DNA from: Mariprofundus aestuarium
GTDB lineage: Bacteria > Pseudomonadota > Zetaproteobacteria > Mariprofundales > Mariprofundaceae
Reading direction: 5' to 3'
DNA: 64,000 bases
NCBI RefSeq assembly: GCF_002795805.1
Contig: NZ_CP018799.1
Location: 1,419,001 to 1,483,000, forward strand
Each line of letters opens with the position of its first letter. Positions within the stretch are counted from its first letter, which is position 1. Below, piece after piece: positions 3,168-4,911 of this stretch. The notes below the pieces were generated by a model that had not been told where the DNA came from, made no database searches, and saw nothing but the letters and a program-made list of their open reading frames with translations. The position numbers and the translations under genes were made by a program.

Positions 3168-4712
<1,545 letters not shown>

Positions 4713-4751: not shown

Positions 4752-4777
4752 AAAAAAGGCCGCGGAAATCCGCGGCC
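4752..4777 (-). terminator. leu attenuator terminator
   Basis: On the minus strand GGCCGCGGA / TCCGCGGCC forms a near-continuous GC-rich stem followed by six U residues and UGUUU, just upstream of leuA. Its left arm is shared with an alternative hairpin: minus-strand GGTCTGTGCGTC (4818-4807) can pair over 12 consecutive positions, three of them G-U, with GATGTACAGGCC (4785-4774). This is the classic mutually exclusive antiterminator/terminator layout of amino-acid operons. Confidence 0.85.
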
Positions 4778-4800
4778 TGTACATCATCAGCTGAACCTAA

Positions 4801-4875
4801 TCAGCAGACGCACAGACCCATTCGAAGTAGTAGGTACTCCGTTGCAGTGGTGGATGCAGAAAACTGTGTGTTCAT
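4801..4875 (-). CDS. leuL: leu operon leader peptide
   Basis: A 24-codon reading frame ending EYLLLRMGLCVC, with three consecutive leucine codons (CTA CTA CTT), two of them the CTA codon that is rare in many proteobacteria. A ribosome stalled at these codons would leave the following segment (GGTCTGTGCGTC) free to form the antiterminator. A ribosome reaching the stop at 4801 would cover it and let the terminator form. There is no Shine-Dalgarno, and the predicted transcription start falls at or within a base or two of the ATG, so it may be translated as a leaderless message. The leader function is inferred from layout and Leu codons; I see no wider sequence family. Confidence 0.8.
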   Translation of the reverse strand: MNTQFSASTTATEYLLLRMGLCVC

Positions 4876-4882
4876 GCAGCGG

Positions 4883-4911
4883 ATTAAAGCACCATGCAAC
4901 TGCTTGGTCAA
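4883..4911 (-). promoter_or_regulatory. Sigma-70 promoter of the leu leader and leuA
   Basis: The minus strand carries TTGACC (-35, 4911-4906), exactly 17 bases, then TTTAAT (-10, 4888-4883). Five of six positions match the consensus in each box. It begins six bases after the pssA stop codon and points at the leader peptide. Confidence 0.8.

Follow-up and report, generated by a model that had tools for sequence, protein, structure and literature searches.

On the minus strand of the analysed window (the whole stretch of 64,000 nucleotides from Mariprofundus aestuarium), the gap between pssA and leuA holds a sigma-70-type promoter, a leucine-rich open reading frame (ORF), an antiterminator and a GC-rich terminator, as read from the sequence. 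The setting is leuA of the iron-oxidising Zetaproteobacteria, located behind a putative leucine-sensing switch. The closest named relative of this leuA belongs to Mariprofundus sp. KV (96%), followed by other Mariprofundus and zetaproteobacterial records, which include M. ferrooxydans PV-1, M. erugo, M. micogutta and Ghiorsea. The features are as follows:

4919-4917, minus strand: stop codon of pssA (sequence)
4906-4911, minus strand: -35 box TTGACC (sequence; TTGAC kept in the leaders of 45 of 45 relatives)
4883-4888, minus strand: -10 box TTTAAT, separated from the -35 box by a 17-nt spacer and from the ATG by 7 nt (sequence)
4801-4875, minus strand: leader ORF MNTQFSASTTATEYLLLRMGLCVC, 24 codons and a stop codon, with the ATG at the predicted transcription start (sequence, relatives)
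4825-4833, minus strand: leucine control codons CTA CTA CTT, codons 15-17 (sequence; CTA enriched)
4823-4841, minus strand: local hairpin around the leucine codons, possibly a pause hairpin (minimum free energy fold; looser covariation)
4807-4818, minus strand: antiterminator 5' arm GGUCUGUGCGUC, within the leader ORF directly 3' of the leucine codons (covariation)
4774-4785, minus strand: antiterminator 3' arm GAUGUACAGGCC, partly shared with the terminator 5' arm (covariation)
4790-4805, minus strand: inner antiterminator helix, GCUGA (4805-4801) with UCAGC (4794-4790) (covariation)
4752-4777, minus strand: intrinsic terminator GGCCGCGG-AUUU-CCGCGGCC (4777-4758) and U6 (4757-4752) (sequence, fold, relatives)
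3168-4712, minus strand: leuA, 2-isopropylmalate synthase, start codon at 4712, preceded by an AGGAG of its own (4723-4719) (ORF; close matches within the class)

All numbers given by the sequence-only reading of this region (promoter with 17-base spacing, 24 codons, three leucine codons, 12 pairs and a U run) were confirmed on the minus strand. Beside CTA CTA CTT, the leader ORF contains a CTG. The outer antiterminator helix consists of 12 contiguous pairs, G-U pairs included (4818-4807 with 4785-4774). GGCC at 4777-4774 is common to the antiterminator and the terminator, so that the two helices are mutually exclusive. The 124-nt leader has a minimum free energy of -44.8 kcal/mol in comparison to -31.7 kcal/mol in dinucleotide shuffles (z = -3.7; 0 of 200 shuffles).

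A search of 78 genomes of the class yielded leuA in 69, and the upstream DNA of 67 leuA copies was read. A leader was assigned if an ORF with a run of leucine codons stood between a TTGAC promoter and a terminator. The same arrangement is present upstream of 45 of these 67 copies (42 detected by script and three by inspection), and 11 of 17 genera possess it; the table by genus lists the second leuA of G012 as an eighteenth row. Several of the relatives are incomplete metagenome-assembled genomes. The combination of promoter, leucine-rich ORF and T-run occurred in 42 of 67 real upstream regions, compared to 44 of 1005 dinucleotide-shuffled ones (4.4%). A covariance model of the RNA detected exactly one element per genome in 39 genomes, adjoining leuA, and no second copy beyond this one in any of them. 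With the RNA model a 46th leader (G028) was found, whereas seven divergent leaders of the genera g9, g10, g12 and g13 were not matched by it; for these, ORF, promoter and terminator were the only criteria of assignment. None of 25 non-zetaproteobacterial leuA upstream regions carried the same leader; L126, which stands in that list, is a member of the class. Leader peptides, spacers and stems vary considerably among the genera, and unconstrained shared ancestry is therefore unlikely as an explanation for the conserved layout.

The remaining 22 of the 67 leuA copies lack the leader (among them L014-L016, L019, L022, L024, L029-L031 and L040). Many of these copies are located close behind the upstream gene, often at less than 60 nt. 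It looks as if promoter and attenuator had been lost before such copies, sometimes within one genus. A second leuA copy without leader (L060, G012:C187) stems from a bin listed with 8% contamination.

Leucine accounts for 23.5% of the residues in the leaders of the relatives. CUA makes up 20% of the leucine codons of the leaders, but only 5.5% of those in the long ORFs of the window, an enrichment which is expected for sensitive control codons.

Covariation was analysed in an alignment of 37 distinct leaders. In the antiterminator, 95.0% of the cells are paired, compared to 26-38% in slid controls, and changes on both sides of a pair were counted 49 times versus 16 in shuffles (0 of 500). For the outer helix, Mariprofundus has GGUCUGU/ACAGGCC where the g4/g6 group has GGCUCGU/ACGAGCC, and the inner helix shows 95.7% paired cells with changes on both sides at three of its five pairs. 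For the terminator, 97.2% of the cells are paired. The local hairpin around the leucine codons covaries more loosely (67.7% paired; 41 cells with changes on both sides versus 17 in shuffles) and may represent a hairpin at which RNA polymerase pauses. In four leaders of g6 (L042, L045, L065 and L066), a one-base change in length relative to their neighbours lets the leader frame end at a later stop codon; the antiterminator pairing is kept in these leaders despite the frame shift. Both the covarying stems and the conserved leucine codons, by which the attenuator was to be checked in related genomes, are thus present (in the 37-leader alignment and in the 45 leaders, respectively).

The distance between promoter and leader ATG is fixed. 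When the best promoter was sought anywhere within 0-25 nt before each leader ATG, the -10 box was located 7 nt upstream in 40 of 45 leaders and 6 nt upstream in the other five, and nowhere else in this range; G028 also shows 7 nt. In shuffled upstream regions these distances are scattered over 1-25 nt. Since real and shuffled upstream regions differ in the frequency of leaders as well as in the spread of this distance, chance is excluded. The spacing of the -35 and -10 boxes varies among the leaders (16, 17 or 18 nt), and it is therefore the interval between -10 box and ATG that stays constant. In the same DNA, a match of at least 5 nt to the anti-Shine-Dalgarno complement occurs before only two of the 45 leader ATGs, but before the leuA ATG in 43 of 45 cases. 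Furthermore, the reading frame upstream of the leader ATG is not conserved among the relatives. Transcription preferentially starts with a purine at the usual distance from the -10 box, and at just this distance the leader ATG as a rule supplies, with its A, the first purine of a pyrimidine- or GC-rich stretch. The leader peptide hence appears to be read leaderless, from the first base of the RNA. The sequence-only reading had placed the predicted start of transcription on the leader ATG and had seen no ribosome site; this agrees with the 6-7 nt observed in all 46 leaders and with the two Shine-Dalgarno matches in 45. As leuA itself possesses an ordinary ribosome site, leaderless initiation looks like a feature of the switch.

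A genome-wide search for the pattern TTGAC-18/19-NNNAMT-7-ATG gave six matches versus four in the reversed control, and at this stringency the layout is uncommon. The start of trpE has no evident Shine-Dalgarno sequence in the same genome and in several relatives (L159, L161 and L163-L165). The sequence upstream of it (..GCTTGTCAAYATGA..) lies near a tRNA gene, and the trpE mRNA is possibly leaderless, too. Inspection by eye of the regions upstream of trpE, ilvB, hisG and pheS of this genome revealed no other peptide attenuator.

It is very probable that the element controls leuA through ribosome-mediated transcription attenuation and senses charged leucyl-tRNA by means of a leaderless leader peptide. 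The attenuation reading is based on the conserved leucine codons, the covarying antiterminator and terminator, and the occurrence of one copy per genome, always before leuA; in this respect the comparison bears out the proposal of a leu attenuator made from the window alone. RNA polymerase would start at the A of the leader ATG or within one base of it, and a ribosome would load straight onto the 5' end of the RNA and translate the 24-codon peptide. If leucyl-tRNA is scarce, the ribosome would stall on CUA CUA CUU, and GGUCUGUGCGUC, left uncovered, could pair with GAUGUACAGGCC. As the terminator 5' arm would be taken up by this pairing, leuA would be transcribed. If leucyl-tRNA is plentiful, the ribosome would reach the stop codon and cover GGUCUGUGCGUC, the terminator would form, and transcription would end before leuA.

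Folding of the nascent RNA was calculated before the 3' arm of the terminator is made, with an assumed ribosome footprint of 12 nt downstream of the A site. With the ribosome at the first leucine codon, the antiterminator is predicted with a mean probability of 0.96-0.99 in groups A and B, and with the ribosome at the stop codon its probability is 0 in both. The antiterminator is thus on with a stalled ribosome and off with a ribosome at the stop, as attenuation requires. In full-length equilibrium folding the terminator usually wins, and the order of folding therefore matters.

Two other explanations concern the start of the leader peptide and would leave attenuation in place. It might be translated from the upstream in-frame TTG at 4911 on a read-through mRNA of pssA, which would yield 36 residues and no leaderless start. 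In the window this TTG is in frame with the ATG at 4875, and GAGG occurs 4-5 nt before it (GAGGG at the pssA stop). In the relatives, however, the TTG of the -35 box shares the phase of the ATG in just 20 of 45 leaders; within 36 nt upstream of the ATG, an in-frame stop codon occurs in 25 of 45. The TTG at 4911 is part of the -35 box itself, and what stays constant among the leaders is how far the ATG lies from the -10 box. Such an upstream start is highly improbable and was rejected due to the phase and the in-frame stops in the relatives. Transcription starting a few bases off the ATG, with 1-5 untranslated nucleotides, Shine-Dalgarno-free initiation and the same function, is rather unlikely; such a leader would strictly be near-leaderless. 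The distance of mostly 7 nt, but 6 nt in five of 45 leaders, gives room for a start one base to either side, and a start one nucleotide from the start codon has a precedent in ilvBNC of Corynebacterium glutamicum (PMC11857589). Against it stands the first purine at the usual start distance, as a rule the A of the ATG itself.

A more radical alternative is that there is no attenuator at all, but a chance leucine-rich ORF followed by the terminator of pssA, with leuA expressed from elsewhere. The element does lie directly 3' of pssA, and 22 leuA copies of the class manage without it. Nevertheless, the leucine-rich ORF is conserved, the covarying antiterminator excludes the terminator, the promoter is located upstream of the terminator, and a comparable leader arises in just 4.4% of shuffled upstream regions, which makes this explanation extremely improbable.

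The behaviour of the leucine attenuator in case of lost translation is a separate matter. The region had been described as the textbook arrangement, and its elements are indeed present; the Mariprofundus-type leader, however, shows no conserved protector (1:2) stem, and upstream pairing in the Mariprofundus group is no better than in codon-shuffled leaders. Consensus folding does support a competing stem upstream in the g4/g6 group. When no ribosome was included in nascent folding, the antiterminator still formed with a mean probability of 0.95 in both main groups. Lost translation might hence give read-through instead of termination in the Mariprofundus group. At the stage when the antiterminator still lacks its 3' arm, most leaders are predicted to pair weakly upstream (means 0.59-0.72), and read-through as the default is therefore a prediction and not a result. 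In the g4 leaders L026, L027, L033 and L035, the start region AUGAGYY can form seven pairs with the antiterminator 5' arm GGCUCGU, with a codon-shuffle P of just 0.05-0.20.

Taken further, the element would be a two-state leucine attenuator without protector stem, read solely from its own leaderless 5' end, which is a speculative and rather doubtful proposal. If no ribosome is loaded, the antiterminator would form and leuA would be on; termination would require a ribosome that loads on the leaderless RNA and reaches the stop codon. If true, the leader would report the charging of leucyl-tRNA together with the capacity of the cell for leaderless initiation, and this would reverse the trp-type rule, by which an untranslated leader leads to termination. 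The element makes it possible to test how such a leaderless attenuator behaves when its leader is wholly untranslated.

The enteric leu attenuator (leuL-leuABCD; RF00512) controls the same gene, and a leader with leucine codons including CUA, an antiterminator and an intrinsic terminator precede leuA there as well. Apart from this principle the sequences are unrelated, and with the Rfam model RF00512 (Leu_leader) the window scores 22.4 bits (E 0.026), which is far below the gathering score of 50 bits. The leuL message of E. coli carries GGAG as a ribosome site in a 5' untranslated stretch, whereas no ribosome site was seen before the leader ATG of the window. In the literature searched, with subscription journals partly covered, no description of a leaderless leu attenuator in Zetaproteobacteria was found; few papers combine Mariprofundus or Zetaproteobacteria with leaderless transcripts and, by title, none of them concerns the leuA leader.

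The leaderless leader had been taken as the odd part of the arrangement; it has precedents, as leaders which are leaderless or one nucleotide off are known from other bacteria. The RNA rnTrpL of Sinorhizobium meliloti starts at the trpL ATG and is the leaderless leader of the trpL-trpE(G) attenuator (PMC7298713). As proposed for the leuA leader, the RNA of this proteobacterium starts at the leader ATG and acts in ribosome-mediated attenuation; unlike the leuA leader, it senses tryptophan before trpE(G), encodes a 14-residue peptide, and the terminated RNA acts in trans (PMC7298713). In ilvBNC (IlvL) of C. glutamicum, the first transcribed base lies one nucleotide from the start codon of the leader, and the start near the ATG, the ribosome-controlled terminator and the relation to branched-chain amino acids are similar (PMC11857589). 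There, a 5' hairpin that shields the start region serves as an anti-antiterminator, and expression falls by 80% if the ATG is lost (PMC11857589). A conserved equivalent of this hairpin is not seen in the Mariprofundus group, but it is resembled by the AUGAGYY/GGCUCGU pairing of the g4 leaders. In Streptomyces lividans, leuL1, leuL2, trpL1 and others are leaderless (PMC8079986). The Streptomyces leuL (before leuA and leuS) shares the leaderless leader with a leucine run before leuA, whereas the leader of leuA lacks a typical terminator (PMC8079986); for the actinobacterial leuA region, a pseudoknot LEU element has been proposed (PMC1262725). Leaderless leaders are thus already known from S. meliloti, C. 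glutamicum and Streptomyces, and their probable occurrence in Zetaproteobacteria is the new addition. Hereby the Zetaproteobacteria would join the groups with leaderless attenuators, with a leaderless sensor peptide that selection has apparently maintained at a single gene in a large part of the class.
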